A DNA stretch of 23,721 bases from a virus. Position 1 is the stretch's first letter; each line of letters starts with the position of its first letter. The notes under the pieces were generated by a model, which was not told the origin of the DNA, did no database searches, and was given only the letters and a program-made list of their open reading frames with translations. The DNA is taken from positions 1 to 23,721 of IMG/VR virus record IMGVR_UViG_3300043331_001109. One strand, written 5' to 3'. This document shows positions 9,184 through 23,668 of the stretch, piece after piece. Position numbers and translations under genes: made by a program.

Positions 9184-9219
9184 GTTAATTTTATCAATCG
9201 CTCGGTCGTGCCGTTGCAC

Positions 9220-9263
9220 GTAAATCTCGAAACCGTAGCTCCAAAAACCTACAGGAGATTTAC
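9220..9263 (+). promoter_or_regulatory. Hairpin covering the major capsid ribosome-binding site
   Basis: GTAAATCTC (9220-9228) pairs perfectly with GAGATTTAC (9255-9263), with an inner GTAG/CTAC pair (9235-9238 / 9249-9252). The Shine-Dalgarno AGGAG (9253-9257) lies at the base of the 3' arm and the ATG is 2 nt beyond the stem. The structure would limit ribosome access or protect the 5' end of a processed mRNA. Confidence 0.6.
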
Positions 9264-9265
9264 AT

Positions 9266-10162: not shown

Positions 10163-10164
10163 CG

Positions 10165-10614: not shown

Positions 10615-10629
10615 ACAAAGGAGAATGTT

Positions 10630-11106
10630 ATGAAATCCAAATTTGAACGAGCTTTAACGGCATCCCTGGCGGGGATCGGGCTGGTTGTCGTCCTGTTTTT
10701 GGTATTTATGGCCCTGTCTCTTGGCCGGCCAGCCCAGGCCGCGCCGCCGGCAGCGCCGACGCCGGTAGCCAACATTGTGACCGGCGGCGATGGGCAATTT
10801 TTTGTCCTTCAGCCGGCGACGGCGATCGCGGTGGATACGAACACCAATGGACCCGACGTGCTGCGCTTTGATTCACTGGATGTGCAGTACGTGATTGACC
10901 ATGGCACAACCAACACCACGACCCTGACCATCCAATATAGCAATGACGGCTCCAATTGGGTCAATGGGGTGGCCCTGGTAACGGACAGCGCGGTGGATGG
11001 CAGCGATATCACCCGGGTGCCGGTTTTTGGCCGTTACATGCGGGTCAATCAAAATGTGAGCACGCCCGACATGGTCACGATCACCGTGAACGCGGTCGGG
11101 CGGTAG
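10630..11106 (+). CDS. Second signal-peptide-bearing beta-sandwich protein
   Basis: The 158-residue product has an N-terminal hydrophobic segment (about residues 10-33, GIGLVVVLFLVFMALSLG) ending in AQA-A, again a signal-peptidase-like site. A Pro/Ala linker and a beta-rich domain follow, containing TIQYSNDGSNWVNG and GRYMRVN. The Y-S-x-D-G-x-x-W motif links it to the preceding gene and to discoidin/F5-8-like sandwiches. AAAGGAG lies 6 nt before the ATG, and 15 nt separate it from its paralogue. A terminator-like hairpin follows. Likely surface-exposed or secreted; precise role unknown. Confidence 0.6.
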   Translation: MKSKFERALTASLAGIGLVVVLFLVFMALSLGRPAQAAPPAAPTPVANIVTGGDGQFFVLQPATAIAVDTNTNGPDVLRFDSLDVQYVIDHGTTNTTTLTIQYSNDGSNWVNGVALVTDSAVDGSDITRVPVFGRYMRVNQNVSTPDMVTITVNAVGR

Positions 11107-11110
11107 CCGG

Positions 11111-11148
11111 CGGCCGCCGGGATCAACGGGGTTTGAGACCGGCGGCCG
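11111..11148 (+). terminator. GC-rich hairpin after the capsid block
   Basis: CGGCCGCCGG (11111-11120) pairs perfectly with 11139-11148, followed by TTTAGT. The stem is strong and the U-tract short. It probably marks partial termination between the capsid block and the connector/tail genes. Confidence 0.55.
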
Positions 11149-11153
11149 TTTAG

Positions 11154-11181
11154 TCAGTGGTCAGTGGTCAGTAATCAGTTG
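11154..11181 (+). repeat. Heptamer tandem repeat (TCAGTGG)
   Basis: Four successive 7-bp units starting TCAGT (TCAGTGG, TCAGTGG, TCAGTAA, TCAGTTG) run straight into the GGAGG of the next gene. Heptanucleotide tandem repeats of this kind are a known feature of some cyanobacterial and Chloroflexota genomes. Confidence 0.8.
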
Positions 11182-11189
11182 GAGGTTTT

Positions 11190-11477
11190 ATGGCCAAGCA
11201 GGCGAGTAAGCCTAAAGAGGAGCGGGATTATTTTATTGTCAATCCCGCGGGGGCGATCCACTCGGTTAGTTACGAGCACGCCAAGGCGCGGCTGGCGCTG
11301 CCCGGCTGGCGCATGGCGACGGCGGAGGAGGTCGCGAAGCTAAAGGCGCGGGGTGGCAACCAGGTGCACAATAAGCCAATTTGCCAGCCGTGGAGCCCGG
11401 AGCCGCAAGAGATCGAGCTGCCGGACGAGGTAGCAGAGGCGCAGGAGGGCGGGGGCGCAGGAGAGAAAGGTAAATGA
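11190..11477 (+). CDS. Small hypothetical head-tail region protein (95 aa)
   Basis: The N terminus is basic. A compact region around residues 12-60 follows (DYFIVNPAGAIHSVSYEHAK in part, then GWRMATAEEVAKL), and the tail is acidic and Gly-rich. The central domain looks like the short phage protein often found between capsid and connector genes, but I cannot name its family. GGAGG lies 6-7 nt before the ATG, immediately after the heptamer repeat. Its stop overlaps the next gene (ATGA). Probably a virion or assembly component. Confidence 0.6.
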   Translation: MAKQASKPKEERDYFIVNPAGAIHSVSYEHAKARLALPGWRMATAEEVAKLKARGGNQVHNKPICQPWSPEPQEIELPDEVAEAQEGGGAGEKGK

Positions 11478-12319
11478 GCGACCAGCGCAACCGGCTGAAC
11501 AACGGCCGTTTTTTGACCGGCCTCGACAACTGGACGGCCAGCAATGCGGCTTACAGCGCCGGCGACGGCGACGAGCATTACGGGGTGGCGGTGCTGGCGA
11601 CGGGCGGGGGCTACGTCGAGCAGCAGTTCAGCGTACCCCACAGCCGGGGGTACACGTTCCATATTGCGGTCAAGGCGGTGGGCGCGCCGCTGGGCGCGGG
11701 CGAGGCGACGGCGCGGGTGCGGGACGGCGACGGCAATACGCTGTTCACGGTCAACCTGGTCGAGGCTACCGGCGACGCCTGGGAAGAAACAACTTACACC
11801 TGGGGGCTGCCGGCCGGCGAGACGCTGACCCTGCGCCTGACCAATGTCACGGCGGCGGGGGACGTGCGGCTTGACGACGTGTGGTTGTGGTGGGTTCCGG
11901 TTGACCGGGCCGGGCTGGCGGCGCGGGTACACGCCAAATTGGGCTCACTGGCCACGGCGCAGAGCCTGAGCACCACGCCCAGCGGGACGCTGACCGAGGG
12001 CGATTATACCTACGCGGTAGACGCCGGCCTGCGCGCAGCCGGGGCGATTGATCCGGAGACGGACCTGCCCGATGTGCGCTGGCTGGACAGCTCCCTATTG
12101 GACACAGCGCTCGACGCCATCGAAAAAGAGATGCTGGAAATGTTGCAGCGGACTTACGCGGTCAAGGTGGATACCCAGGTGGGCAGCCGGCGCGAATCAT
12201 ATAGCCAGGTGGCCAAGGCCCTGGGCGAATTGACGGGGGCCGGGGGCCAGGGGGCAGGGGCCGGTAAGGTAGTAGTACGCAAGCTGCACCACAAGGCGGA
12301 GGATTTTGAGTTTGATTGA
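11474..12319 (+). CDS. Jelly-roll domain fused to a head-tail connector-like domain
   Basis: Two parts are visible in 281 residues. Residues 1-142 look like a carbohydrate-binding jelly roll of CBM4/9 type: NGRFLTGLDNWTAS at the start, a central YVEQQFSVP, and the closing strand DVRLDDVWLWW. Residues 150-281 are helical and resemble head-tail connector/adaptor proteins (LAARVHAKLGSL ... LDTALDAIEKEMLEML ... YAVKVDTQVGSRRESYSQVAKAL). The fusion would display a glycan-binding module at the neck. It starts in an ATGA overlap with the preceding gene. Domain boundaries are estimated by eye. Confidence 0.65.
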   Translation: MSDQRNRLNNGRFLTGLDNWTASNAAYSAGDGDEHYGVAVLATGGGYVEQQFSVPHSRGYTFHIAVKAVGAPLGAGEATARVRDGDGNTLFTVNLVEATGDAWEETTYTWGLPAGETLTLRLTNVTAAGDVRLDDVWLWWVPVDRAGLAARVHAKLGSLATAQSLSTTPSGTLTEGDYTYAVDAGLRAAGAIDPETDLPDVRWLDSSLLDTALDAIEKEMLEMLQRTYAVKVDTQVGSRRESYSQVAKALGELTGAGGQGAGAGKVVVRKLHHKAEDFEFD

Positions 12320-12324
12320 GCCGC

Positions 12325-12367
12325 GTCCTGAGCCGTGTCCTGAGCTTATCGAGGGGCCTGCCGAAGG
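12325..12367 (+). repeat. GTCCTGAGC repeat element
   Basis: GTCCTGAGC occurs twice (12325-12333, 12337-12345), followed by TTATCGAGGGGCCTGCCGAAGGG. This is the widespread bacterial dispersed repeat whose usual form is CCTGAGC-TTGTCGAAGGG. It occupies the gap between the connector fusion and the small zinc-ribbon gene. Confidence 0.65.
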
Positions 12368-12419
12368 GTTTTCCCAGGAAAAGACGTGCTACAAGTAGCC
12401 CTACGGCCGGGCTGAGGTG

Positions 12420-12554
12420 ATGCTGACCCTAGCTCGCCGCCGGCGGCACAAACGCCGGCGGCGGAGCGAGCGTGGGGCGTATTACTGCCAGGAGTGCCAG
12501 GCGTGGCACCTGACCAGTATCCGGCAAGTCAGGCAGGGGCGGCGACGTGGATAA
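12420..12554 (+). CDS. Small basic zinc-ribbon-like protein (44 aa)
   Basis: A short frame starting MLTLARRRRHKRRRRSERG has 18 basic residues in its first half, then YYCQECQAWHLTS. The C-x-x-C plus W-H-L arrangement is the signature of very small phage/plasmid zinc-ribbon proteins, here probably using C-C-H ligands. GTG 12417 precedes the ATG and GAGG lies immediately upstream. Its 3' end overlaps the following gene by 8 nt. It fits snugly between two structural genes and was probably missed by length cut-offs in typical annotation. DNA or RNA binding is inferred from charge. Confidence 0.6.
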   Translation: MLTLARRRRHKRRRRSERGAYYCQECQAWHLTSIRQVRQGRRRG

Positions 12555-12858
12555 TTTCTTGACTGCAACTTGTGACCATAAAAACAACCCGACCGGGGCG
12601 GCGACGTTGAGCACGGTGGCGACGGGGATCGCCTGCACGCCGCTCGATCCGGCCAGCCGGACGCCAAGCCAGGATTACCCGGTTGAAAAACTCTACCTAC
12701 TCAGGGAGTGCTTTACCAAGTACAGCGCCTTTGTGACCGGCGATTTCCTGGTTTCGGGGGGCGTGACCTACGCGGTGCGGGCGGCCTGGCCCTGGGCGGC
12801 GCAGGGGGCAATGGATGCCTATTATCACCTGATTTTGGAGCAGCAGGTGGGAGGGTAG
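12547..12858 (+). CDS. Head-closure/stopper-like protein (103 aa)
   Basis: The GTG-initiated 103-residue product is beta-rich (ATCDHKNNPTGAATLSTVATG, then EKLYLLRECFTKYSAF and VTYAVRAAWPW), with a pattern typical of SPP1 gp16/HK97 gp7-like head-closure proteins. These plug the portal after packaging and receive the tail. The call depends largely on gene order: connector, stopper, gp10-like, tail terminator, major tail. It overlaps the small zinc-ribbon gene by 8 nt and is followed by a large inverted repeat. Confidence 0.5.
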   Translation: MDNFLTATCDHKNNPTGAATLSTVATGIACTPLDPASRTPSQDYPVEKLYLLRECFTKYSAFVTGDFLVSGGVTYAVRAAWPWAAQGAMDAYYHLILEQQVGG

Positions 12859-12860
12859 CA

Positions 12861-12935
12861 GAAGGATGAAGGCGGAAGGATGAAATAAAGAATGTTTTTC
12901 TTCCCTTCATCCTTCATCCTTCATCCTTCCGCCTT
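12861..12935. repeat. GGATGAA/TTCATCC inverted heptamer repeat, copy 1
   Basis: A 16-bp segment (12869-12884) is perfectly inverted at 12920-12935. The arms are built from GGATGAA units and three TTCATCC units, the latter starting at 12906. The 26 bp at 12861-12886 recur identically at 16557-16582. The hairpin could act as a transcription or translation barrier between the stopper-like and gp10-like genes. Confidence 0.85.
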
Positions 12936-12952
12936 TCTGTAAGGGGTAGTAG

Positions 12953-13258
12953 ATGGCGGCGAAAGTGGTGGTGATTGGGGCGGCGCAGTTGGGGGCGGAC
13001 CTGGAGACGGTGGCGGCTCTGCTGACCAAGCCGGAGTTGATTACCTGGCAGTTGGCGCTGAATATGAGCCGGGTGGTCCACCGGCGCACCGGCTACCTGC
13101 AATCTACGATATATCATAAGGCCCACGAGGCCGGGGCGACGGCGCCTTACGCCGGATTTGAAGAGGAGCGGGGCGGCAGCCACGCTTACGCGACGCGGGC
13201 TATCGAGGATTTTAATATGGAGCGGTACGCGGACAATGTGTGGGAGCCGCTGGAGTAG
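12953..13258 (+). CDS. HK97 gp10-like neck/tail-completion protein
   Basis: The 101-residue protein carries the family pattern RRTGYLQSTI (residues 45-54), then a beta strand, APYAGFEEER and AYATRAIE. It corresponds to the 'TGxLxxSI ... YxxxxExG ... PA' pattern of HK97 gp10 proteins, which sit at the head-tail joint. GTAAGGGG lies 7 nt before the ATG, just after the inverted heptamer repeat. Size and location between stopper and tail terminator support the call. Confidence 0.8.
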   Translation: MAAKVVVIGAAQLGADLETVAALLTKPELITWQLALNMSRVVHRRTGYLQSTIYHKAHEAGATAPYAGFEEERGGSHAYATRAIEDFNMERYADNVWEPLE

Positions 13259-13261
13259 GGA

Positions 13262-13666
13262 ATGGGGACACGTAAGGAGTGCAGAGAGACCCTGGCCGGG
13301 CTGTTTAGCGCCCTGACATTTACCGGCGGGGTCTATGAGTACCTGCCGATGAACCTGAACGGGGCGACGAAGGTGCTGGCGGTTTACAGCGACACCAGTC
13401 GGCACGAGATAATTTCCGGCGGTTTTGGTAACAATTTTTATCGTTTTAACCTGGACGTGCTGGTCAAGCGGGCCGGGGCGGGGGTGCAGGATGACCTGGA
13501 CGATCTGCACGAAAACGTGCGGAGCGTGATCCGGGCGGCGGTGGGTAATGCGGCCTGGAACGAGATCACTATCGAAGAGGACTCGGAGGGGCTATTTGCC
13601 GAGATCGCCGGGATTCCTTATCGAGTCGAGCAGCACAAGGTTTTGATCAAGGTCAGTAGCACATAA
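13262..13666 (+). CDS. Tail terminator-like protein (134 aa)
   Basis: Starting 3 nt after the gp10-like stop, this protein has an alpha/beta pattern: an N-terminal helix, VLAVYSDTSRHE, FNLDVLVKR, a long helix DDLDDLHENVRSVIRAAV, and final strands. This is characteristic of the gpU/DUF3168-like tail terminator or tail-completion family, which caps the tail tube and joins it to the head. It lies directly before the major tail gene, the conserved position. Sequence-level family signatures are weak, so the assignment rests on pattern and order. Confidence 0.6.
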   Translation: MGTRKECRETLAGLFSALTFTGGVYEYLPMNLNGATKVLAVYSDTSRHEIISGGFGNNFYRFNLDVLVKRAGAGVQDDLDDLHENVRSVIRAAVGNAAWNEITIEEDSEGLFAEIAGIPYRVEQHKVLIKVSST

Positions 13667-13675
13667 GGAGCTTTT

Positions 13676-14641
13676 ATGTCTAGTAAAGCACAGAGACAGG
13701 TTTTAATCGGGCTGCAATCCGCAGCCGGGACGGGGGTCAATGTGGACGTGGCGCTGCGGGCGACGTGCAGCTTGGCCCCTGACCCAGATAAAAAAAATCC
13801 GGACGAGAATATCGGCTCGTTTGCGCCGGCCCGGCATTACATCGGTAGCATCAAACCAAAAGGCGATTTGAGCTGTGATGCCTATTATGAGCATCTGCCC
13901 TACATGCTGAGCATGGGCCTGGGCGCCGGCGTGGTGAACGCGCAGGCGTCGCCGCTGCCGGATATCTGGACCTTTAGCCTGCCGGATGACGCAGCCGACG
14001 ATTTTGCGCTGTATACCGTCGAGTACAGCGATGGGGCCAATCACATCGTGCGGGCTGAGGATGTTTTTGCCAGCGCGATGGAGATCAGCGGCGAGGCAGG
14101 GCAATCGTGGCTGATCAAAAACACGCTGGCCGGGGGCGAAGTGACCAAGCCGGCGGCGCTGTCGGCCACGCCGTCACCGCCGGCAGGGGTAGTAGCGGTG
14201 AGGATGGCCGAAACGCTGCTGTACATCGATGACACCTTTGCCGGTATTGGGACGACCAATGTGGCAGAATTGATCAGCTTTTCCTGGAAAATCGAGGAAC
14301 TACAGCATACCAAACAATTTGCCGGCAGCCTGTATCCCAACGGGCGGGGCTCCAATATCTGGAAAGTGACCCTGGAGTTAGTGGTCGAGGTGGAGACGGC
14401 GGAGATCGAGGCGGAACTGGATAAGGTGCTGACGACCGATCAATCGGCGATCCGGATTGCCGCGACCAGCAGCAGCACTCGGAGCTGCGTGATCGACGGG
14501 ATGTACATGCTGAAGGAAATCGACAGCCTGGATGACCGGGACGGCAACAATACGATCAAGTTGACCTACACCGGCGAAAAGGACGCCAGCGACAATACCG
14601 GCTCGATTGTGGCCACCGTGCCAGAACTGGCGGCGCTATGA
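13676..14641 (+). CDS. Major tail (tube) protein
   Basis: The 321-residue beta-rich protein begins SSKAQRQVLIGLQSAAG, typical of siphophage tail-tube proteins. It then has repeated strands around DLSCDAYYEHLPYML (residues 58-72) and ends with NTIKLTYTGEKD plus a flexible Thr/Val tail. It follows the tail terminator gene, has AAGGAGC 6 nt before the ATG, and is followed by the frameshifting chaperone genes. Its 321 residues exceed the minimal tube protein (about 200), so an inserted or C-terminal extra domain is likely. Confidence 0.82.
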   Translation: MSSKAQRQVLIGLQSAAGTGVNVDVALRATCSLAPDPDKKNPDENIGSFAPARHYIGSIKPKGDLSCDAYYEHLPYMLSMGLGAGVVNAQASPLPDIWTFSLPDDAADDFALYTVEYSDGANHIVRAEDVFASAMEISGEAGQSWLIKNTLAGGEVTKPAALSATPSPPAGVVAVRMAETLLYIDDTFAGIGTTNVAELISFSWKIEELQHTKQFAGSLYPNGRGSNIWKVTLELVVEVETAEIEAELDKVLTTDQSAIRIAATSSSTRSCVIDGMYMLKEIDSLDDRDGNNTIKLTYTGEKDASDNTGSIVATVPELAAL

Positions 14642-14994
14642 TCGAATTCAAGGTACTCAAGCGCAAGCACTGGCTGAAGGCGCAGGAGATTTACGAGAAG
14701 ATCGAGGCGGGGACGGCGGGAGAAAACGAGATATTGCTATTTGTTGTCAGCCTGGTCAAGACGTGGGATTTTATAGACGAGGAGACCGGGAAGCCGCTTG
14801 GGCCGGATGACCCCAAATGTATTTATGAGCTTTCGATGTCGCAGTATGTAGAGCTGATGGGGTGTTTTAACGAGCGGATGGGGGTAACGGTCCCAAAAGT
14901 GAACGCCGAAAGCTCGTCCTCTGGTTTGACGCCCTCAAAGCCGGCAAAGAGAAACTCCCGCAGCCGCCGGACTGGCTACTCGACTACGCAATAG
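14638..14994 (+). CDS. Tail assembly chaperone, unshifted product (gpG-like)
   Basis: The 118-residue frame starts in an ATGA overlap with the major tail gene. The first 87 residues look like a helical gpG-type chaperone with an acidic/hydrophobic core (AGENEILLFVVSLVKTW, KCIYELSMSQYVELMGCFNERMG). Residues 88-118 form a Ser/Arg-rich, structureless tail. That contrast is expected if most function lies upstream of a frameshift site. Chaperones of this type coat the tape measure during tail assembly. See the fusion product for the alternate reading. Confidence 0.82.
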   Translation: MIEFKVLKRKHWLKAQEIYEKIEAGTAGENEILLFVVSLVKTWDFIDEETGKPLGPDDPKCIYELSMSQYVELMGCFNERMGVTVPKVNAESSSSGLTPSKPAKRNSRSRRTGYSTTQ

Positions 14995-15116
14995 CCCGGC
15001 AGTTTAGCCGCTGGCCATGGGAACTGGACGAAGGGCCAGTAGAGTGGGTGAGTAGGCTGTACGAAATCCATTATCACATCAACAAACGGGGTATAGACCC
15101 CTGGGCTAGTCAATGA
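14638..15116 (+). CDS. Tail assembly chaperone fusion made by -1 frameshift (gpG-T-like)
   Basis: Between the gpG-like frame and the tape measure a second open frame, -1 relative to it, runs from a TAA at 14868-14870 to TGA at 15114-15116 without any start codon. The two frames overlap at C CCA AAA (CCCAAAA, 14892-14898), in register for P- and A-site slippage. The fusion would have 159 residues: 87 shared, then SERRKLVLWFDALKAG ... WELDEGPVEWVSRLYEIH ... INKRGIDPW. The T part has the aromatic-rich helical look of phage T-type chaperones, and its stop overlaps the tape-measure start (ATGA), as in lambda-like phages. Slippage is predicted from sequence; efficiency is unknown. Confidence 0.85.
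14892..14898 (+). other. Slippery heptamer for -1 frameshifting
   Basis: CCCAAAA follows the X XXY YYZ rule in the frame of the upstream chaperone (codons CCA AAA). Re-pairing one base back reads CCC AAA. It lies 22 nt after the last stop of the target frame. No strong downstream pseudoknot is obvious by eye. Confidence 0.85.
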
Positions 15117-16558
15117 CCACACGCAGACTCAAGATCATCGTGGACCAGGCCGGCGACGCCAGGGCCGGCCTGGGTAACTTGGCCAGCGGCCTGGGCAAGC
15201 TGGCCGGGCCGGCCGGGATTGCGGCGACGGCCATCGGGACGCTGGCCGCGGCGACGGTGGGGGCCGGGGCGCTGCTGGTGGGCCTGGGTAGTGATGCTCA
15301 GGAGATGCAAGGCAAGTTTGATATCGTCTTTGGGACATCTGCGCCGGAGGCGGCGGCGGCTCTGGACGAGTTTGGAAACGCGGTTGGGCGTAACAAGTTT
15401 AGCTTGATGGGGATGGCGGCCGCCCTACAGGACACCTTTGTACCGCTGGGCTTTGCCAGGGACGAGGCGGCCAAAATGTCGGTCGAGGTATCCAAGCTGG
15501 CTGTTGACCTCGGCTCGTTTAATAATGTATCCGAGGAGGCGGTGGCGGCCGATCTACAATCGGCACTGACTGGCCAGGCCGACGTAATGAAAAAGTACGG
15601 CGTGGTCATCAACCAGGCGGCGATTGAGAACGAGGCCCTGGCCCTGGGATTGATCGCTTCCAAGGGCGAACTGAACGCACAGAGCCAGGCGGCGGCGACA
15701 CTGAGCCTGATCATGAAAGGCACCAGCGACGCCCAGGGCGACGCGGCGCGCACCTCCGGCAGTTGGGCCAACCAGATGCGGGCGCTAAAGGCGGAGCTGG
15801 CCGAAGCAGCTACGACGATGGGCGTTGAGTTGCTGCCGGTAGTGACGCCACTACTGGCCGACTTTACGGCCTGGGTCAAGGACGTTTTACCCAAAGGCGT
15901 GGTTGTGTTTAAGGAGTTTGCGATCAATCTCAAGGGGACGGTGCAGCCGGCGATGCTGCTGATCAATGACGCCCTGACCCGGATCGCCAAGGCGTTTGGG
16001 GTGCAGACGGACAAGGTGACGGCGGGCGACGTGGCGCTGCGGGCGTTCAAGGCGATATTGAGCACGGTGATCACGGCCATTCAATTGGGGGCGATTGCGT
16101 TGCAGGGCCTGGCCGCGGCGGTAGAGGGCGCCAGGGCCGTCTGGCAGGGGTTTCAGGGGGTCCTGGACAGCGCCAGGGGCGGGATCAATAGCATCAAGGG
16201 AGCCATTGACGGCCTGGTACGCAAGATGCGCGATCTGGCCAATGCGGCCAGGGCGGCGCTGTCGGCGATGTCGAGCCTGGTGCCGCACTCGCCGGTGGTA
16301 TATGAACAGGGCCTGATGCAGATCAATCAGGCAGCCAATAAACTACAAAAAACGTTCGAGGTGGGCTTCAATGTGCAGGGGGCGGGCCTAGCCGGCTCAC
16401 CCGGCCTGGCCGCGGCGGGCGGGGGCGGCGGCTTGGTGCAGTTGGTGGTGCAGTACCAGCCGATTGTCAGCACGGCCAGCCAGATCGAGGTCGAGCAGAC
16501 GCTGATCCCGCTGATCGTCGAGGGGTTGCGTAAGCGGGGAGTAGCGGTTAAAGGATGA
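15113..16558 (+). CDS. Tape measure protein
   Basis: The 481-residue protein follows the chaperones and has the layout of tape measures. A Gly/Ala-rich amphipathic N terminus is followed by the segment SAPEAAAALDEFGNAVG ... MGMAAALQDTFVPLGF, shared by many siphophage tape measures. Long helices and hydrophobic stretches lie around residues 300-345 (TVITAIQLGAIALQGLAAAVEG), and the C-terminal domain is compact. Length sets tail length, so a short-to-medium tail (roughly 70 nm by the usual 0.15 nm per residue) is expected. The stop codon lies inside a dispersed GGATGAA repeat, so the original C terminus may have been altered. A diverged copy of the segment 16173-16313 occurs at 20792-20932. Confidence 0.9.
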   Translation: MTTRRLKIIVDQAGDARAGLGNLASGLGKLAGPAGIAATAIGTLAAATVGAGALLVGLGSDAQEMQGKFDIVFGTSAPEAAAALDEFGNAVGRNKFSLMGMAAALQDTFVPLGFARDEAAKMSVEVSKLAVDLGSFNNVSEEAVAADLQSALTGQADVMKKYGVVINQAAIENEALALGLIASKGELNAQSQAAATLSLIMKGTSDAQGDAARTSGSWANQMRALKAELAEAATTMGVELLPVVTPLLADFTAWVKDVLPKGVVVFKEFAINLKGTVQPAMLLINDALTRIAKAFGVQTDKVTAGDVALRAFKAILSTVITAIQLGAIALQGLAAAVEGARAVWQGFQGVLDSARGGINSIKGAIDGLVRKMRDLANAARAALSAMSSLVPHSPVVYEQGLMQINQAANKLQKTFEVGFNVQGAGLAGSPGLAAAGGGGGLVQLVVQYQPIVSTASQIEVEQTLIPLIVEGLRKRGVAVKG

Positions 16559-16582
16559 AGGATGAAGGCGGAAGGATGAAAT
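16557..16582 (+). repeat. GGATGAA repeat, copy 2, at a gene junction
   Basis: These 26 bp are identical to 12861-12886. The copy (with flanking GGATGAA from 16553) contributes the tape-measure stop TGA (16556-16558) and the AAGGA that serves the TTG start at 16583. Confidence 0.85.
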
Positions 16583-18763
16583 TTGGCTCGATATAACACT
16601 TTTCAGTATGGCGATGGGACGCTGTACGGGGCGGAGGCTGCGCCGGGTGTAACCGAGGTGCATCTGCTGTGGTCGGTGCTGGTGGATTGGGACGCTGACG
16701 GTTTCTTCTCCGGAGAGAATGAGGCGGCCTACCTGGTCGGCTTCAGCCTGGCGCGGGGGCGGGATCACTACGTTGACCCGCAGGGCCAGGGCTTCGAGCG
16801 TTACGGCACGGGCCGGGCGACGCTGATCCTGGACAATGACGACGGCAGGTTCAATCCGTTTAATACCTCCTCGCCGCTCTATCCCTATGTGACGCCGGGT
16901 AAGCGGGTGCGGATCAACGTGTTGGACCGGGACACCGGCACGGACCACGAGCTGATGCGGGGCATGATCGCCGACATTCAGCCCTACAACCAGGGCAACC
17001 GTAAAATGGTGCGCATCGAGGCTGTGGACGGCCAGGAATGGCTGCGAGGCCGGACAGTCAGGGTAGGCTACCATAGGGGCACACCCTACGAGGCCGGCGT
17101 GTCCGGCGCCGATTGGACGACCGGCAAGTGGGTCGATCTGATTTTGCAGCGGGCCGGCTGGCCGAGCACTGAATGGCCCAGGGAGTACAATTACTTCATA
17201 GACCTGTCGGGCAACCAAGTGGCCGGGTTTACCGAAAACTTTTACCGCTGGGCCCAGCACGCCTGGTTTTGGGTGCGCGACGCCTACGAGGCGGTGCAGG
17301 AGATGGCCGACGTGGAGATGGGGACGTTCCTGCACGCCAGGGACGGCCGGGCGCGTTTCCTGAGTTCGCACTTTACATACGACAAGGTAGTCCAGTTAGA
17401 CGAAAGCGAGTTACTGCGGGACATCACGACGCCACAGCCATGGGAGACGCTGCGCAACCGGATCGAGGTGCGGGTGCATTACATCCGCAACGCCGGAGCG
17501 GTGACGACGCTGTGGGCTGTGGGCGGGACCGGTAACGACGCCATCCCGCTGCCAGCCGGCAGCTCCAAGACGTTTGACGCCCAGTTTCGGTACGGCAATT
17601 TTCACGCCGTACCGGTGGGCGGCAGTGGCTACGGGATATCGTTCACGGTCAATTCGCTACGGAGCGGAGCGGGGATGAACCTGACCGCGCAGTGTGTGGC
17701 CAGCATTAGCGAGGTAGGCGACGGGGCGACGATCAGCCTCCAGAATAACAGCGGGACCAATGGCTACATCATCAATTTGAGTCTGACGGCCGACCCGCTG
17801 TACCGGCCACATTCAACGATTGTCAGCGCTGAGGATGGGACGAGCCAGGGGGTTTACGGGACGCGGGTTTTGGGCCTGGACTCGCCCTGGATGCAAGAGT
17901 TTGAGTGGGCGGACACGTTGAAGGCGATGCTGGTCAACGTGTTGAGCAAACCGACGCAATACCCGGTGGTGCGGATCGAAAAGCGGGCGGATAAGCAGTT
18001 TGGGCTGGATTTGTACGTGGACGCCATCCACCTGACCAGCGCCACGCTAGGGATCAACGCACTGTACCGGATCGGCAAGATCGAGCATTTGTGGCTAGGG
18101 GAGACCGGCGATGCGATATTGACGACGCTGCGGCTGGAGCCGTATTTTGCGCTGGATGCGCCGGCGGAGCTGGACTATGAGATTTACAATCCATTTGACA
18201 GCAATAATCCGGGGGCCGGAACGTCCGATGAAATTGATGTGGGCTGTGAAGGCGACGCAGTTGCGGATGGTTTTTTTACCTGGTGCAATGATGAGCCGGT
18301 TGTGGATTTTGTTTATATCAAATTTGTGGATGGACAGGACGACCACACCTATGGGGATTACAGCGGCGGAAACAACGGATTTGTGTTGGCCGCGTTTGAC
18401 GGAGCGGACGTGGCCGATTTTATTTCTGTTCTCTCTACACCTGTCGGGATCGGGGAAAATTATCGGATCGCCTTTTGGTATCAATGGCAGGACACCAACT
18501 TGTTAAGCCCATCGGATGAGCCGATCCAGATAATAGTCGGTACAACCGAAAGCGGCAGTTCTGCCATTACCGAAAGCGTACCCCTCGAAATCATATCCGG
18601 GGCAGGAGAGTGGCAGCAATACCTGGTAGATCTATCCGATTTTGCCGGCGAGCACCTGACCAGGATTGTTTTTCATAAAGGTTCGTTTGACGGCGGTTCC
18701 GGGCCGCTATTCAGAATGGACGACCTGGCCTTTGGGAAGTTCATTTACGCGGGAGACAACTAA
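16583..18763 (+). CDS. Large baseplate/tail protein with C-terminal jelly roll
   Basis: At 726 residues this is the largest protein here. Residues 15-180 contain the pattern SVLVDWDADGFFSGENEAAYLVGFSLARGRD ... TLILDNDDGRFNPFN ... GKRVRINV (quoted in parts), characteristic of phage tail proteins in the distal-tail/hub position. The middle (180-510) is beta-rich with Trp/Tyr. The last 170 residues, after a Gly/Thr linker, form a jelly-roll-like module ending FRMDDLAFG. The initiator is TTG, with AAGGA supplied by the repeat at 16557. Bases from about 18230 to 18740 are visibly richer in A/T than the neighbours, hinting that the C-terminal module came from elsewhere. It overlaps the next gene by 1 nt. 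Confidence 0.75.
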   Translation: MARYNTFQYGDGTLYGAEAAPGVTEVHLLWSVLVDWDADGFFSGENEAAYLVGFSLARGRDHYVDPQGQGFERYGTGRATLILDNDDGRFNPFNTSSPLYPYVTPGKRVRINVLDRDTGTDHELMRGMIADIQPYNQGNRKMVRIEAVDGQEWLRGRTVRVGYHRGTPYEAGVSGADWTTGKWVDLILQRAGWPSTEWPREYNYFIDLSGNQVAGFTENFYRWAQHAWFWVRDAYEAVQEMADVEMGTFLHARDGRARFLSSHFTYDKVVQLDESELLRDITTPQPWETLRNRIEVRVHYIRNAGAVTTLWAVGGTGNDAIPLPAGSSKTFDAQFRYGNFHAVPVGGSGYGISFTVNSLRSGAGMNLTAQCVASISEVGDGATISLQNNSGTNGYIINLSLTADPLYRPHSTIVSAEDGTSQGVYGTRVLGLDSPWMQEFEWADTLKAMLVNVLSKPTQYPVVRIEKRADKQFGLDLYVDAIHLTSATLGINALYRIGKIEHLWLGETGDAILTTLRLEPYFALDAPAELDYEIYNPFDSNNPGAGTSDEIDVGCEGDAVADGFFTWCNDEPVVDFVYIKFVDGQDDHTYGDYSGGNNGFVLAAFDGADVADFISVLSTPVGIGENYRIAFWYQWQDTNLLSPSDEPIQIIVGTTESGSSAITESVPLEIISGAGEWQQYLVDLSDFAGEHLTRIVFHKGSFDGGSGPLFRMDDLAFGKFIYAGDN

Positions 18764-19917
18764 TGACAACCGTTTTTCCGGGCGCGATTGATTTCTACAC
18801 GACCAAGGTTGATAGTGTGACCCAGGTGCTAGCCAGCCACGTGAATGATTTGCAGGATGCGGTGGTGGCGATTGAGACCGTGGTCATTGCCCAGTCGCCA
18901 AATCCTAACCTGCTCTATCACACGCTGACGCACGATATTTGGATGACCGGGACAACGTTTAACGACGTGAGCGACGACAGCTATGTAGCTACGCTGTGGA
19001 ATGCGCTGTGGAATGGTAACGCCCCGGATGTATCAGGCGTGGCGGTGGCGACGCCGTTTTTTGGGGCGGGCCGCCATCTGAAGTGCTTATTTGACACCAA
19101 CGGTAGCCAGGCCGGGTTTGCGCAGTTTTTGACGGCCCAGGATACTTATGCCCTGCGAGGTAAGACTGTCACCTTTAGCATCGATGCGGTCGGGGCGAAT
19201 GTGGCGAATTTGCGCTGTGCGATCATCGGATGGGCGGGCACGGCGGACAGCCTGACCAGCGACGTGGTCGGAACGTGGAGCACTGGCAACCCGACACTGG
19301 CAACCAATTGGAGCTATTTGAGCGACAGTGGGACGCCGCAGGACCAGGCATTAAGCGGCGGCTCGACGGTGGACCGGCTGGAGTGTACGGCGACGATCCC
19401 GTATGACAACACAGTTAATAACCTGGCCGTGTTTGTCTGGACGCCGGACCAGGAGGACAACGGGGATTATTTTCTACTGGCCAGGGCCAAGCTGGAGATT
19501 GCTTCGAGCGCGACGGGTTTTGTGAACTGGGACATGGCAATTGAGCAAGCACTGCTGGTGTCGTTTTACAATAAATCGTACCTCATGAATATTACTCCCG
19601 GCAGTGCGTCAGATCCGGGGGCTATCGGATGGCAGACCCGTGTGGCCATCGCGGCCAGCACGGCGGGCACGCTCCGGCCCCAAACCCCGAAATATCCACG
19701 TATGAGGGTAGCGCCCAGCATTGTAATCTACTCTCCGGCCACCGGAACGTCTGGGGCGGTCCGTAACGACATCGCCGCAAACGACCGGACAGGCTGCACA
19801 GCTGTCAATATTAGCGACACCGGATTTCAGGCCATAAGCGTGAGTAATGCTAGCGCAAACGCCATCGCTCTCGATGAGGCTTTGCGCCTGCATTTTGTAG
19901 CAGACGCGAGGTTATGA
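18763..19917 (+). CDS. Tail fibre-like protein
   Basis: The 384-residue protein begins with a tail-attachment segment, FPGAIDFYTTKVDSVTQVLASHVNDLQDAVVAIE in essence. Its 'SHVNDLQ.A' helix is typical of phage fibre and baseplate-attached proteins in Gram-positive and Chloroflexota phages. Residues 45-250 form a jelly-roll-like module (LYHTLTHDIWMTG ... GRHLKCLFDTNGSQ ... YFLLARAKLEI). Residues 255-384 form a beta-rich tip ending near EALRLHFVADARL. This design suits a receptor-binding protein. It starts where the preceding stop ends and overlaps the next start (ATGA). Confidence 0.72.
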   Translation: MTTVFPGAIDFYTTKVDSVTQVLASHVNDLQDAVVAIETVVIAQSPNPNLLYHTLTHDIWMTGTTFNDVSDDSYVATLWNALWNGNAPDVSGVAVATPFFGAGRHLKCLFDTNGSQAGFAQFLTAQDTYALRGKTVTFSIDAVGANVANLRCAIIGWAGTADSLTSDVVGTWSTGNPTLATNWSYLSDSGTPQDQALSGGSTVDRLECTATIPYDNTVNNLAVFVWTPDQEDNGDYFLLARAKLEIASSATGFVNWDMAIEQALLVSFYNKSYLMNITPGSASDPGAIGWQTRVAIAASTAGTLRPQTPKYPRMRVAPSIVIYSPATGTSGAVRNDIAANDRTGCTAVNISDTGFQAISVSNASANAIALDEALRLHFVADARL

Positions 19918-20186
19918 TGATTGGTTATAAATTTACGACAGGTGGTGTTTTGAAATTGGACAACGGGGCTGTGGTCATTTCGATCCCGGACGACCCGGGC
20001 AATCGTGATTGGCAAGAGTTTGAGACGTGGCTGCTATTGGGTAACACACCGGAGCCGGCGGATATTGCCTGGCCGGAACCGACCACGCCGGCGCTGGTCA
20101 AGCGGGCCGAGTTGGCCGCCAAGCGCCCGGCGCTGGTGGCAGACGCAATTTTAATCGAAGACTCAATTATTTTGGAGGAATGGTGA
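19914..20186 (+). CDS. Small tail-end protein (90 aa)
   Basis: Two adjacent ATGs (19914, 19917) overlap the fibre stop. The product has an N-terminal beta hairpin (IGYKFTTGGVLKLDNGAVVISIP), a DWQEFETWL segment with Pro-rich linker EPADIAWPEPTTP, and a C-terminal helix. Short proteins with a 'W..Y/F..WL..GN.P.PAD' pattern follow fibre genes in many phages and act as fibre-assembly chaperones or tip components. The function is inferred only from this resemblance and position. Confidence 0.6.
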   Translation: MMIGYKFTTGGVLKLDNGAVVISIPDDPGNRDWQEFETWLLLGNTPEPADIAWPEPTTPALVKRAELAAKRPALVADAILIEDSIILEEW

Positions 20187-20473
20187 GCAAAAAAGCTGAT
20201 TTTGTGGTAGCGGCGCAGGAGGTCAGTACTATCCTGGCTAAACTTGCGCCGAAGATGCAGGCGCTTTTCGAGGCGTACTTTGACCGGGGCTACAATGGCG
20301 GCGGGGCTGATCCGTTGGTAGATGGCGACATCCCGGCGGAGCTAGAGGCGACGGCGGCCAATGTGGCGGCGTTCATCACCCTGGCTGAAAATGTGGGTAT
20401 TTTTCTGAACAACGGCGCGCCGTTCCAGTCGGATTACCAGAGTACGGTCAATAAGCTGCGGACGGATTTATAA
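20183..20473 (+). CDS. Small helical tail-end protein (96 aa)
   Basis: GGAGG (20174-20178) is only 1 nt from ATG 20180 but 4 nt from GTG 20183, so the GTG start is preferred. The protein is mostly helical: SKKADFVVAAQEVSTIL, an EAYFDRGYNGGGADPL turn, then EATAANVAAFITLAENV and a final helix. This pattern recurs in proteins at the end of tail modules in Chloroflexota phages. The role is unknown, possibly assembly. It is the last + strand phage gene, and its stop lies 35 nt from the truncated attC remnant. Confidence 0.62.
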   Translation: MSKKADFVVAAQEVSTILAKLAPKMQALFEAYFDRGYNGGGADPLVDGDIPAELEATAANVAAFITLAENVGIFLNNGAPFQSDYQSTVNKLRTDL

Positions 20474-20677
20474 GCGAGGCCTGGTAATATAGCGCGTTTT
20501 TAGCGTTGGTTGTCCGGTCGGCTCAACCGGCTTGTTAGGTGGCGCTTCCGCCACAAAATAATGACCACAATCATCACACCGATACTCGCAAAAATTATCT
20601 TCGTCATCCGGGTCGGGTTGCAATGTTACCGTCACCGCATAACTGCCACACTCCGGGCAACTGGCTCGATTATCCAT
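20468..20677 (-). CDS. Zinc-ribbon protein in a cassette (69 aa)
   Basis: Residues 7-10 (CPEC) and 34-37 (CDDC) plus C30 form a four-cysteine zinc ribbon of the type CPxCG ... CDDCGHYF. AAGGAGG lies 10 nt before the ATG and the cassette boundary GTTAGGC (20706-20700) lies just upstream, the usual spacing for an integron cassette gene. The last 23 residues are encoded by the attC arm and continue past it into sequence bordering the phage gene, ending in a convergent overlap of 6 nt with the tail-end gene. The native stop was probably lost when the attC site was truncated. Confidence 0.7.
   Translation of the reverse strand: MDNRASCPECGSYAVTVTLQPDPDDEDNFCEYRCDDCGHYFVAEAPPNKPVEPTGQPTLKTRYITRPRL
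20508..20540 (-). other. Truncated attC site (one arm)
   Basis: Read on the minus strand, CCTAACAAGCCGG and AGCCGACCGG match the 1L and 2L side of the two complete attC sites (core GTTAGGT at 20534-20540 on the plus strand). The matching second arm is not recognisable to the left, where phage sequence begins. The site marks the cassette/phage junction. Confidence 0.7.
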
Positions 20678-20699
20678 TTTTTCGCGGCCTCCTTCAGCC

Positions 20700-20706
20700 G
20701 CCTAAC
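20700..20706 (-). other. Cassette boundary core site GTTAGGC
   Basis: On the minus strand GTTAGGCGGC precedes the zinc-ribbon gene and is complementary, with one mismatch, to the start of its attC remnant (GCCACCTAAC). That is the relation expected for the two ends of one cassette. The attC of the preceding cassette is degenerate; only GTCCAAC (20724-20730 region) resembles a second core. Confidence 0.55.
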
Positions 20707-20791
20707 TAATTTTACGGGTTGGACGTATCCGTTGGGACTTAACGTGGGCCAGTGGGTCGAGCGTGTCCCAAGGGGACTATTCCGGCACAAA

Positions 20792-20932
20792 CCAGGCGCG
20801 GCATCAATAGTATCAAGGGGGCGATTGACGGCCTGGTGCGCAAAATGCGCGACCTGGCCAACGCGGCCCGGGCGGCGCTGTCGGCGATGTCGAGCCTGGT
20901 ACCACATTCGCCGACGGTATACGAGCAGGGTT
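20792..20932 (+). pseudogene. Diverged fragment of a tape-measure gene
   Basis: This 141-bp stretch aligns without gaps to 16173-16313 of the tape-measure gene, offset 4619, with about 17 differences (near 88% identity). Nearly all differences are synonymous, so NSIKGAIDGLVRKMRDLA and LSAMSSLVPHSP are unchanged. It has no start of its own and no tape-measure context. It is a relic of a related phage's tape measure rather than a recent internal copy. Confidence 0.88.
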
Positions 20933-20972
20933 TGGAGAGGACTTTTCCTCCTTCGCTTAAAGTGCGGTCGCT

Positions 20973-20998
20973 CCCGTCCCGGCTTCTAGCCGGGCGGG
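20973..20998. other. Strong GC hairpin after a cassette gene
   Basis: CCCG-T-CCCGGC pairs with GCCGGG-CGGG around TTCTA with a single bulged T. It lies 3 nt beyond the stop of the minus-strand gene at 21002. No U-tract follows on the minus strand, so termination, if any, would be weak. Confidence 0.5.
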
Positions 20999-21001
20999 AA
21001 A

Positions 21002-21253
21002 TTAAGGTAGATGCACAAACGAGTCCCTTAACGGCGTTTTGGCAGCCATCATGACGTAATGTGGAAGCAGAGGAAATTTGCCATCTATCTGTTGTCCATC
21101 CTTTTTACTGTAGGTTAAAAGATGGTAGGTGTGATAGCCTGGACATTTGATAGTTACGGTGTCTGGTGTTTCGTTAACCACTTCCGCGTCACAACTGTGA
21201 AAAATTTTACCATCCCTGTCGAACAAAATCATCGGTACGGTTTTAGTGTACAT
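21002..21253 (-). CDS. Hypothetical cassette protein (83 aa)
   Basis: The beta-rich 83-residue protein has a VPMILFDRDGKIFHSCDAE hairpin, DTVTIKCPGYHTYHLLTY and a short helical end. The two Cys and several His are not in a recognised metal motif. AGGAG sits 7 nt before the ATG and the start overlaps the upstream gene by 11 nt, so the pair is translationally coupled. It has no known family. Composition is less G+C-rich than the phage genes to the left, consistent with foreign cassette DNA. Confidence 0.68.
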   Translation of the reverse strand: MYTKTVPMILFDRDGKIFHSCDAEVVNETPDTVTIKCPGYHTYHLLTYSKKDGQQIDGKFPLLPHYVMMAAKTPLRDSFVHLP

Positions 21254-21503
21254 CGCTTGCTCCTAAAGTTTGTTGGGCGGAAACCCCTGACATCTTGTCA
21301 GGGGAGGATGTCATTTCACCTTCTCCAACGTCACCACCATCCCCCCAAAAATCAAACCGCTTCCATTCGCTACTCGACGCCAACCACGCTTCAAGCTCAG
21401 CGCGGACCGGGGGCGGGCAGGCCATAAAGCAGGCGCGAATCACGTCGCAGTTGTCAACCTCGGTTAGCGGGCGTTTGCCGGTTTGGGTGTAGCGGATACG
21501 CAT
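21243..21503 (-). CDS. Hypothetical cassette protein (86 aa)
   Basis: The product starts MRIRYTQTGKRPLTEVDNCD and contains a helix CPPPVRAELEAWLASSSEWKRF. The C-terminal half is acidic and probably disordered. GGAGG lies 7 nt before the ATG. The 5' end overlaps the small zinc-finger gene by 40 nt and the 3' end overlaps the 83-residue gene by 11 nt. This forms a tight minus-strand operon of four short genes. The family is not recognised. Confidence 0.65.
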   Translation of the reverse strand: MRIRYTQTGKRPLTEVDNCDVIRACFMACPPPVRAELEAWLASSSEWKRFDFWGDGGDVGEGEMTSSPDKMSGVSAQQTLGASDVH

Positions 21504-21634
21504 TGGTTAGCCTCCATCGTCTGTATTTTAACACACCGCCCGCACTCCCGGCGTTCGTTGCGCCCCGATGGGCTATCCGCGCTGTGGGTGTAGGATTCGC
21601 CGGGTAGGATTATGTTACCGCACGTGGAACACAT
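21464..21634 (-). CDS. Small zinc-finger protein (56 aa)
   Basis: A short frame begins MCSTCGNIILPGESY and has a second pair at CGRC (residues 31-34), giving CxxC ... CxxC, the shape of a minimal zinc-binding module like those in HNH-associated or transcription-factor-like small proteins. It overlaps the preceding gene by 20 nt and the next by 40 nt on the same strand. A weak AAAGG lies 14 nt upstream of the start. The cysteine spacing is the main support; the long overlaps make it less certain than its neighbours. Confidence 0.5.
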   Translation of the reverse strand: MCSTCGNIILPGESYTHSADSPSGRNERRECGRCVKIQTMEANQCVSATPKPANAR

Positions 21635-21836
21635 CCCTGATTGCCTTTGTTGAATAGTCTTTTATAGTTAAAGTCTGTGGCTCAAAATGGATAGGCCAAA
21701 TCCCTGAACCGGAATCGAATCGCTGCTTGAGCAATTTGATGACAAGCAGCCCCTCGTCAACCAGGTATTCATGGCCGTTGATTTCTATGTATTCTCCTGG
21801 GTTAAGAGCCTTGAGTCCAGCTAACGAGCCGGGCAA
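21615..21836 (-). CDS. Hypothetical first gene of a cassette (up to 73 aa)
   Basis: The frame opens at TTG 21836 inside the attC site, runs across the recombination core and continues as LNPGEYIEINGHEYLVDEG ... LVIKLLKQRFDSGSG ... DVFHVR. That is a small beta-plus-helix protein with a lysine-rich helix. No ATG or GTG is in frame early on. AGGAG occurs just before an in-frame ATA (21788 region), so the true initiation point is uncertain. The cassette could depend on translation entering from attC. Function is unknown. Confidence 0.5.
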   Translation of the reverse strand: MPGSLAGLKALNPGEYIEINGHEYLVDEGLLVIKLLKQRFDSGSGIWPIHFEPQTLTIKDYSTKAIRDVFHVR

Positions 21837-21940
21837 TCAGCCGCGCCCGCGCTCACCTGGATAAAGCACCGGCTGAAAGTGCATAAAGTGACCTCAAGAA
21901 AAATCAGGGTTGTGGCGTCGGCTGCATTGCCTTGTTAGGC
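21819..21940 (-). other. Integron attC recombination site B (122 bp)
   Basis: On the minus strand the site runs from GCCTAAC (21940-21934) to GTTAGCT (21825-21819), with imperfectly inverted inner boxes: GGCAAT-G-CAGCCG-A-CGCC on the left arm against GGCGCGGCTGATTGCC on the right. The unpaired extra bases in the left (L) boxes and the order of boxes are the hallmarks of attC and set its orientation with the minus-strand genes. The left outer box ATCCGCCTAAC is exactly complementary to the start of the same cassette at 22438-22448. Confidence 0.88.
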
Positions 21941-21978
21941 GGATTTTTGTGATATAATATTTTCGGGGGTTGCCATAA

Positions 21979-22197
21979 CTAACTCCCATTCCCATAATCG
22001 GGGCGGTTACTGCGAATAATCGCCCCTTTTTGTTTTTGTTTGACCTCATATTCGTATGTGCCGAGGCAAAAATTACCCTGACCGTCATCATGTCCCAGTT
22101 TAATATATTCGGCCACCTGGTTGAGTAACTCGATGATGCTATCGGCATCATCAGCCTCAATCCTGATGGTTAATAGTAAATCCCAGTTATTTTGCAT
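21979..22197 (-). CDS. Hypothetical cassette protein, second of a pair (72 aa)
   Basis: The product begins MQNNWDLLLTIRIEADDADS, followed by a helix IIELLNQVAEYIKLG and a beta hairpin NFCLGTYEYEVKQKQ with a basic end. The alternating beta-alpha-beta look would suit a small binding or immunity-type protein. Its ATG overlaps the stop of the preceding gene by 11 nt, so the two are coupled. The cassette contains only these two genes. Composition is A+T-richer than the phage region. No family is recognised. Confidence 0.65.
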   Translation of the reverse strand: MQNNWDLLLTIRIEADDADSIIELLNQVAEYIKLGHDDGQGNFCLGTYEYEVKQKQKGAIIRSNRPDYGNGS

Positions 22198-22426
22198 CTA
22201 AATACGCCTGCCGACTAAATAGCCATCTCGCCATTTCATCAATCGTGAAAGCGACATAATCGGGCGTATCTGGCGCAAACGCACTTCGATATGTCGCCTC
22301 AAATTGCTCGCCGTATTTTGCAACTTCCCAACCCGGCGAGTGAGGTGCTCGAAATTTCATTATTTCCATTTTTTCCAACGGAGACCAATCAATTGATTGA
22401 AAAAATTCTAAAAACGTGATAAGCAT
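22187..22426 (-). CDS. Hypothetical cassette protein, first of a pair (79 aa)
   Basis: The ATG at 22426 is preceded by GGAG 6 nt upstream and lies 16 nt after the cassette core GTTAGGC, the usual geometry for an integron cassette gene. A longer frame from 22516 starts inside attC and has no ribosome site, so it is not preferred. The protein starts MLITFLEFFQSIDWSPLEK and continues with WEVAKYGEQFEATYRSAF and a final helix MARWLFSRQAYLDAK. It is aromatic-rich and probably compact. Family unknown. The bicistronic layout with the 72-residue gene resembles toxin-antitoxin or defence pairs, but nothing in the sequences proves it. Confidence 0.65.
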   Translation of the reverse strand: MLITFLEFFQSIDWSPLEKMEIMKFRAPHSPGWEVAKYGEQFEATYRSAFAPDTPDYVAFTIDEMARWLFSRQAYLDAK

Positions 22427-22441
22427 AACCGTCTCCAATCC

Positions 22442-22562
22442 GCCTAACGAGCCAGGGCATAAGCCGCGCCCATGCAGCCCTGGAAATAATTTTAGCTTAA
22501 AGTGGCGCGTAACCATCTATAAAAGCCGAGGTTGTGGCGTCGGCTTGATGCCCTTGTTAGCT
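22442..22562 (-). other. Integron attC recombination site A (121 bp)
   Basis: On the minus strand AGCTAAC (22562-22556) opens the site and GTTAGGC (22448-22442) closes it. Inner boxes GGGCAT-C-AAGCCG-A-CGCC and GGCGCGGCTTATGCCC are inverted repeats with the extra bases on the left arm only, the same AAGCCGACGCC box found in aadA-type attC sites. The outer box GTCCAGCTAAC exactly complements the cassette's own start at 23166-23176. The methyltransferase stop lies within this site. Confidence 0.9.
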
Positions 22563-23159
22563 GGACGTAAAACCAACCCCGTTTTAATATCCTCGACTTC
22601 ATTACCAAAACTTGTCCAGCCGGGCATGGAGCGCCGGGCAAACAATTCAAGATATGGCCCTGGCAATGCTTGAGCTAACTCATGGATGCTGTCTGGTTTC
22701 CGGCTATGCTGGAAGTTTGGGGACATTAACCCTAAAAACCCCTCCATTCTTGGGGCTGAAACATCGCCCCGTTTGCCGATAAAGACAAACTCAGAGCAAC
22801 CACGCACCCAATACCCAACCCCATAATAAACACCATGCCCGTTTTTGTTTAGCTTTATCCAGGGAAAGCCGGTTACATACTCAAAGCCCCATGCCTGCAT
22901 CGTTTGCAGGGCTTCCGGCAATTTCGGCCACGTTCCCCAAAGGAGCAAAACGCTATCGGATTTAGCAAGCTGGCCCACCGGCATGGCGTAAATCTCTTTA
23001 TCTGTCATCAATTCATATTGATCTTTTGCCGTTCCCTGACCCCTTGCCACCCGATAAGGCCAGGGGGGGATCAGCGACGATCACGCCGTAACGATACGGG
23101 AACTGAGCTAGTTCTATTTGCCGGGCATCACCGGTTATGATTACACTTTCAAGTGGCAT
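22517..23159 (-). pseudogene. MT-A70-family DNA adenine methyltransferase, frameshifted in a C7 run
   Basis: If one base is removed from the run at 23063-23069, a single 213-residue protein results with the MT-A70 layout. It starts MPLESVIITGDARQ, has catalytic DPPW at residues 30-33 (ADPPWPY), DSVLLLWGTWP, GFPWIKLNKNG, the conserved RPK-like HSRKPDSIHEL segment, and LELFARR..PGWTSFGNEV at the C terminus. MT-A70 enzymes transfer a methyl group from SAM to N6 of adenine. As written, the seven C (minus strand) shift the frame after DPP and give a 48-residue truncated peptide. The downstream 177-codon frame remains open. The gene fills one cassette, with its start 11 nt after GTTAGCT and its stop inside attC A. 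It is either a phase-variable gene caught OFF, a recent null allele, or a sequencing indel. Confidence 0.85.
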
Positions 23160-23165
23160 CTCTTA

Positions 23166-23176
23166 GTCCAGCTAAC
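23166..23176 (-). other. 5' boundary of the cassette array (GTTAGCTGGAC)
   Basis: The minus-strand core GTTAGCT (23176-23170) and following GGAC start the methyltransferase cassette and exactly complement the outer box of its attC A. The upstream gene stops only 6 nt before it, so no complete attC fits here. The cassette therefore joined an attI-like or secondary site. Confidence 0.65.
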
Positions 23177-23181
23177 TATGA

Positions 23182-23412
23182 TTATACGGACTGTCCAGAT
23201 TTAGACATCGCCCGGTGGTAATTCTGATGCCCCGCCGGGTCCCAAAATCGCTCCTCAACTACAATTTCCACCGTCGTCATCCGTATCCGCCGCCGGCCAT
23301 CACCGCGATAGCGCACCGCCAGTAAGCGCGAGCCGTACCGCCGTAGCCACCGGCGCGAACCGGGCCGACCCGGTTTGATTGATTTTAGCACAATTCCCGT
23401 CTTTTTAATCAT
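23182..23412 (-). CDS. Small basic hypothetical protein (76 aa)
   Basis: Residues 1-45 are strongly basic and contain SIKPGRPGSRRWLRRYGSRLLAVRYRGD, then a strand TTVEIVVEERFWDP. I recognise the 'GxPGxxxxxxxYGxxLxxVRYRYD...KTVEIIVEExxW' pattern as a family of short hypothetical proteins widespread on proteobacterial plasmids and genomic islands, of unknown role. The charge suggests nucleic-acid binding. The start overlaps the preceding gene by 8 nt and GGAGACA precedes the ATG. It lies just outside the first cassette boundary. Confidence 0.7.
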   Translation of the reverse strand: MIKKTGIVLKSIKPGRPGSRRWLRRYGSRLLAVRYRGDGRRRIRMTTVEIVVEERFWDPAGHQNYHRAMSKSGQSV

Positions 23413-23668
23413 TGTCTCCCTCCAGCCAATAGCTCAGGTCAAAAGGCGGCTCCGGCCGGCCAACGCAGACGATGCCGATCATCGCGCCGCCGTTGTTGCT
23501 ATAGACCCGGAAGCCGTGACTGTTGACGGCCTCGATGCGGGGCGTGAGCAGGCACAGGCGGCCCGGCTCCTCGCGGTTGGCCTCCCGGATGATCTTCAGG
23601 TCGCCGGGGGCGACGTGGTCGGGAAAGGTCAGTTCAAAGTATTGGGTTTGTTCTTCGTTCGGGTTCAT
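23405..23668 (-). CDS. Hypothetical protein (87 aa)
   Basis: The 87-residue acidic protein starts MNPNEEQTQYFELTFPDH, contains GDLKIIREANREEPGRLCLLTPR and a beta-rich second half (GFRVYSNNGGAMIGIVCVG). It may be a small alpha/beta partner of the basic protein encoded next to it, with which it overlaps by 8 nt. An acidic-basic pair in tandem is suggestive but not diagnostic of a complex. AAAGGAGC lies 6 nt before the ATG, preceded by a heptamer tandem repeat. Base composition resembles the phage rather than the A+T-richer cassettes. Family not recognised. Confidence 0.65.
   Translation of the reverse strand: MNPNEEQTQYFELTFPDHVAPGDLKIIREANREEPGRLCLLTPRIEAVNSHGFRVYSNNGGAMIGIVCVGRPEPPFDLSYWLEGDND

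Follow-up and report, generated by a model that had tools for sequence, protein, structure and literature searches.

Organization of the Locus

The window, by which we denote the whole analyzed stretch of 23,721 nt (positions 1-23,721 of IMGVR_UViG_3300043331_001109, an IMG/VR viral contig from a metagenome), contains a phage head and tail module on the plus strand (4922..20473). Its terminase, portal, head, tape measure, and tail genes match PHROGs, and homologous genes occur both in related phages and in prophages of Anaerolineae. Next to the last tail gene lies a set of gene cassettes on the minus strand. Cassette 1 (22448..23175) extends from TTAGCTGGAC to the G of the R' box of attC1 (22442..22562) and carries an MT-A70 adenine methyltransferase gene (22517..23159). 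Cassette 2 (21825..22447), delimited by its R boxes and closed by attC2 (21819..21940), contains two small overlapping ORFs (22426-22187 and 22197-21979) without a match in Pfam, PHROG, or PADLOC. The minus-strand stretch after attC2 (20940..21824) comprises the overlapping small ORFs 21836-21615, 21503-21243, and 21253-21002 as well as an attC remnant (21282-21258). It is followed by a 139-nt fragment of a tape-measure gene (20792..20930) in plus orientation, the same as that of the tail genes, which is 88% identical to 16173-16311. A truncated cassette (20508..20706, minus strand; start GTTAGGCGGC, end GCCACCTAAC) is the last one, with an ORF (20677-20468, minus strand) that gave weak, below-cutoff zinc-ribbon matches and overruns the tail gene end. 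At this distal end a half attC is located (20508..20540, minus strand), of which only the R'' and L'' arm is present.

The half site starts 34 nt past position 20473, where the last tail gene stops; the sequence-only reading had the array begin about 35 nt after this gene. The minus-strand orientation of all cassettes was recovered. Upstream of cassette 1 two further ORFs are situated (23182..23668, minus strand). For the first, relatives of 40-50% identity occur in 13 of 346 Anaerolineae genomes; phage records gave no match to either of them, and this part may thus be host DNA.

Within the phage part, a near-perfect hairpin of GGATGAAGG repeats lies between phage genes (12851-12939), and a third copy, inverted, follows the tape-measure gene (16550-16580). 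By eye, the product of ORF 3374-3760, upstream of the terminase gene, presumably has a response-regulator receiver domain.

Identification of the attC Sites

Two covariance models were derived from the related phage G001 (see below): R2, built from six of its attC sites with full loops and zero window sequence, and R1, a smaller model of the same sites with the loops cut. R2 matched both full sites on the minus strand, attC1 with 63.3 bits (E 1.6e-14; 22566-22438) and attC2 with 60.4 bits (E 8e-14; 21944-21816). The next best match (20544-20432, minus strand; 16 bits, E 0.014) is the half site, a truncated attC with 71-74% identity to the two full ones. The remnant at 21282-21258 reached 12.9 bits with R2, and an Rfam search returned nothing relevant. 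R1 gave only 12-13 bits on the window sites because the real loops are about 60 nt long, a problem which was resolved by the full loops of R2. As a positive control, the attC of aadA7, a genuine plasmid-borne site, was recovered by R1 with 35 bits (E 8.5e-9), and R2 also matches attC close to some bacterial IntI genes; the models therefore recognize attC sites in general.

In an arm-pairing scan both full sites scored about -16 to -17 kcal/mol, with 0.1 comparable sites expected per shuffled window. When folded as the bottom strand, each shows an R stem, a spacer that is left unpaired, and one arm with two extrahelical bases, i.e., the paired R''/R' and L''/L' arms, the extrahelical asymmetry, and the folded bottom strand by which attC sites are defined. 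Due to the long loops, the whole-site folds are only weakly better than those of shuffled sequences (z -2.2 and -0.8). Hairpins are formed by attC sites and by terminators alike, so that terminators or other palindromes had to be considered as the source of these structures. This identity was ruled out already by the covariance model scores, and the combined presence of R and L boxes, extrahelical bases, and matching cassette ends likewise speaks against it, rendering it highly improbable. By sequence and predicted fold, attC1 and attC2 are genuine attC sites. Thus the two full sites, the half site, and their minus orientation stand as claimed by the sequence-only reading, and two of the checks which it had named, an attC covariance-model search (E about 1e-14 for both full sites) and bottom-strand folding (R stem, unpaired spacer, and asymmetry seen), were passed.

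Cassette Boundaries and Decay of the Array

The start of cassette 1, GTTAGCTGGAC (23176), is the exact complement of GTCCAGCTAAC, and the start of cassette 2, GTTAGGCGGATT (22448), that of AATCCGCCTAAC; the complementarity to R'' is exact over 11 and 12 nt, respectively. The cassette with the half site starts at about 20707 and matches its own attC end in 9 of 10 positions. For the stretch 21824-20708 neither a closing attC (R2 scan) nor a start-to-R'' complement was found. The earlier statement that each cassette start complements its own attC is therefore exact for cassettes 1 and 2 and nearly so for the half-site cassette, but does not extend to this stretch. Given the missing closing attC, the small ORFs, the attC remnant, and the tape-measure piece, we regard the array as real and its distal end as decayed; the insertion of the tape-measure fragment and a frameshift in the methyltransferase gene are signs of this partial decay. 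The fragment would stem either from another related phage or from an old duplication, and its position within the array region ties this region to phage DNA.

No IntI match was obtained in the window, as the sequence-only reading had noted. Since only 0.55 kb of sequence separate the first cassette from the contig end, an integrase may lie farther out. Complete integrons combine intI, attI, and attC, whereas the window has no functional IntI; a CALIN requires two or more attC sites of the same orientation, and here two full and one half site were found. As far as visible, the array is probably of the CALIN type.

The MT-A70 Methyltransferase of Cassette 1

The methyltransferase gene matches PF05063 (E 8e-23) and phrog_359 (E 1e-48), and its last residues are encoded by attC1 sequence. 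In the window it is frameshifted at a homopolymer near 23064-23070, due to decay or a sequencing error; an intact homologue is present in G001. Between the two genes 53 synonymous and 6 replacement codons were counted (dN 0.03, dS 1.04, dN/dS about 0.03), which shows strong purifying selection, and therefore the product mattered. The dS value is below that of the head genes (1.5-2.8) but close to saturation, and a recent transfer of cassette 1 is not claimed. The cassette genes belong to the phage families phrog_359, phrog_9298, and phrog_1384 (Mom). The methyltransferase probably protects phage DNA from host restriction. The cassette genes had been proposed as accessory or defence genes; phage DNA modification in the sense of anti-restriction is the better reading.

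A Related Phage with the Same Cassette

G001 (IMGVR_UViG_3300037851_000800, 33 kb) shares homologous terminase (60% amino acid identity), portal, and head protein genes with the window, and its MT-A70 cassette is 87% identical to cassette 1 at the nucleotide level. Upstream, the homology between both breaks exactly at the cassette boundary TAG|TTAGC, i.e., at the G|TT point; downstream, it stops inside attC, just past the L'' box. The G001 array contains seven attC sites, with the methyltransferase cassette as the first, and codes for the MT-A70 methyltransferase, a radical SAM protein, small ORFs, and a Mom-like protein. It is located between the early genes and the terminase gene with phage genes on either side, whereas the window array is flanked by them on the tail side alone. 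Relative to the head genes, its orientation is opposite to that in the window. Both arrays have a GC content of 0.45-0.48, compared to 0.57-0.61 in the phage parts. Since the same cassette resides inside G001, phages of this lineage are able to carry cassette arrays in their genomes.

A comparison of window 22540-22460 with L121:8512-8600 revealed one methyltransferase cassette with differing attC bodies in the two phages, and the attC sites of each phage tend to resemble one another. The attC halves may have been exchanged or locally homogenized.

IntI-Like Recombinases

Immediately ahead of the first cassette of G001, and reading toward the array, a degenerate IntI-like recombinase of 180 aa is encoded. 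Its best family match is the integron integrase TIGR02249 with 79 bits, which is below the curated cut-off; among solved structures, IntI4 scored 58 bits versus 36 for the next. The N-terminal part is shorter by about 100 residues. R280 and Y312 are kept, but R146, K171, H277, and H303, which all 58 IntI compared possess, are not. Judged from these lost catalytic residues, the protein is most likely inactive, and a role as working integron integrase was rejected. Its placement in the tree is unsure (branch 6.9). About 80 IMG/VR contigs carry IntI-like recombinases, with attC detected by R2 in only three of the stretches examined (L306-L384). An ORF of the Anaerolineae genome G294 picked for the IntI comparison matched no IntI and was dropped. 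Tyrosine recombinases consisting of the catalytic domain only (179-192 aa) were seen shortly before the terminase gene in two related phages (G005, 27510-28088, minus strand; L404:15415-15954).

Distribution and Host

With a two-row terminase alignment, relatives of the terminase were retrieved from about 40 IMG/VR contigs (identity 38-58%). Neither the terminase nor the last tail gene produced matches in exact-peptide scans, and terminase patterns applied to genome contigs yielded no confirmed relative. A related terminase occurs in 9 of 396 genomes of the class of an Anaerolineae MAG. The prophage of G251 has a major head protein and a last tail gene product of 70% and 71% identity, respectively; the latter gene is followed by another large gene in G251, and by the array in the window. 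Two Anaerolineae genomes with related prophages contain attC, namely G251 (55 bits) and G294 (44 bits, together with an IntI of 470 bits). Due to these related prophages, Anaerolineae are the best guess for the host, and the window virus probably infects bacteria of this group of the Chloroflexota.

Cassette 1 was not detected in the 386 Anaerolineae genomes searched, which thus gave no donor candidate. No further IMG/VR record contained its start, and attC sites were detected in 0 of 30 other related phage records. Taken together, cassette carriage is sporadic. The 15-mer GCCGACGCCACAACC is present in at least 119 stretches of viral contigs, mostly by chance.

Origin of the Array

We consider it likely that the locus represents a short, partly decayed CALIN, with no integrase visible, carried by a tailed phage of Anaerolineae (Chloroflexota). 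In the window itself the array is probably part of the phage genome, the junction between both being taken from the assembly. The strongest evidence is the related phage with the same cassette inside its genome, which makes such carriage, as put forward from the sequence, credible. During lysogeny, an active host integron integrase would presumably act in trans on the prophage and join the folded attC bottom strand to a prophage site at G|TT, so that cassettes would be captured from the host. The insertion point may be an attI beside a captured intI, as in G001, or a secondary site; according to Loot et al. 2024, as cited in PMC12901181, cassettes insert at non-classical attG sites of bacterial genomes. 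Once integrated in the prophage, the cassettes would be inside the phage and therefore be replicated and packaged along with it. The phage would thereby carry cassettes without an integrase of its own, and cassette 1 would be its source of a phage-type MT-A70 adenine methyltransferase.

The half attC at the junction would also be expected if a prophage had ended or recombined within an attC site of a neighboring host integron, in which case both the array and its right flank would be chromosomal. The relatives of the flanking ORF in Anaerolineae genomes, with none in phages, point in this direction, and a Vibrio anguillarum prophage is known to excise at attC sites (PMC9892861). However, the tape-measure fragment lies within the array region, the cassette was not found in any of the 386 Anaerolineae genomes, and in G001 its counterpart is enclosed by early genes on one side and the terminase gene on the other. 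For the window we hold a host-integron flank to be unlikely, and it does not fit G001. Even less probable, in our view, is a chimeric assembly in which a phage contig was fused to an unrelated integron contig. The contig is metagenomic, the junction falls inside the half site, and a duplicated tape-measure segment could cause misassembly; but the duplicate is just 88% identical and situated away from the junction, and an independent contig shows this cassette in a phage of the same type.

Relation to Known Phage Cassettes

In a screen of 10,705 phages, 21 with integrons or integron components were identified, among them CALINs with methyltransferase cassettes, and five of six phage attC sites tested recombined (Qi et al. 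2023; PMC9892861). As phage CALINs were published in 2023 (PMC9892861), the window array adds to a known class. Of the earlier remark that phage cassette arrays are rarely documented, the rarity holds, but CALINs including methyltransferase cassettes and recombining attC sites had already been described (PMC9892861). With Tetrasphaera phage TJE1 and Polaribacter phage P12002L (PMC9892861) the window shares an integrase-less attC array in a tailed phage, and in addition same-direction cassettes with the former and DNA methyltransferase cassettes with the latter. Unlike the published phage CALINs, it belongs to a Chloroflexota phage, MT-A70 and (in G001) Mom cassettes are present, the window array is decayed, and the same cassette occurs in two phages in differing place and orientation. 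Similar to the complete integrons of the temperate phages Vibrio anguillarum p16 and Shewanella M16-3 (PMC9892861), G001 has an IntI-related gene adjoining attC cassettes, but its IntI is devoid of four catalytic residues and of the larger part of the N-terminal domain; in the window none is visible. New here are the Chloroflexota phage lineage, which joins the few phages known with integron cassettes, a cassette shared by two phages, and the degenerate IntI.

The same modification cassette at different places in two related phages, with a break at the recombination point, fits a cassette-wise exchange among phages. Such cassettes could help phages to escape restriction, and phages could carry them from host to host. 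It is tempting to speculate, though we give this rather low credence, that Anaerolineae phages keep a circulating pool of anti-restriction cassettes (MT-A70, Mom, radical SAM) moving singly from phage to phage, with the IntI provided by the host or, once, by a phage.

In chromosomal integrons of the Chloroflexota, attC sites were found by the same model R2 (G251, G294), but these reside in bacterial genomes and not in phages. In one Anaerolineae genome (L426:9241-10398), a region of attC cassettes adjoins a truncated IntI; by eye, we take the products of this region to be a RusA-like resolvase and a pair of the YefM/YoeB type.
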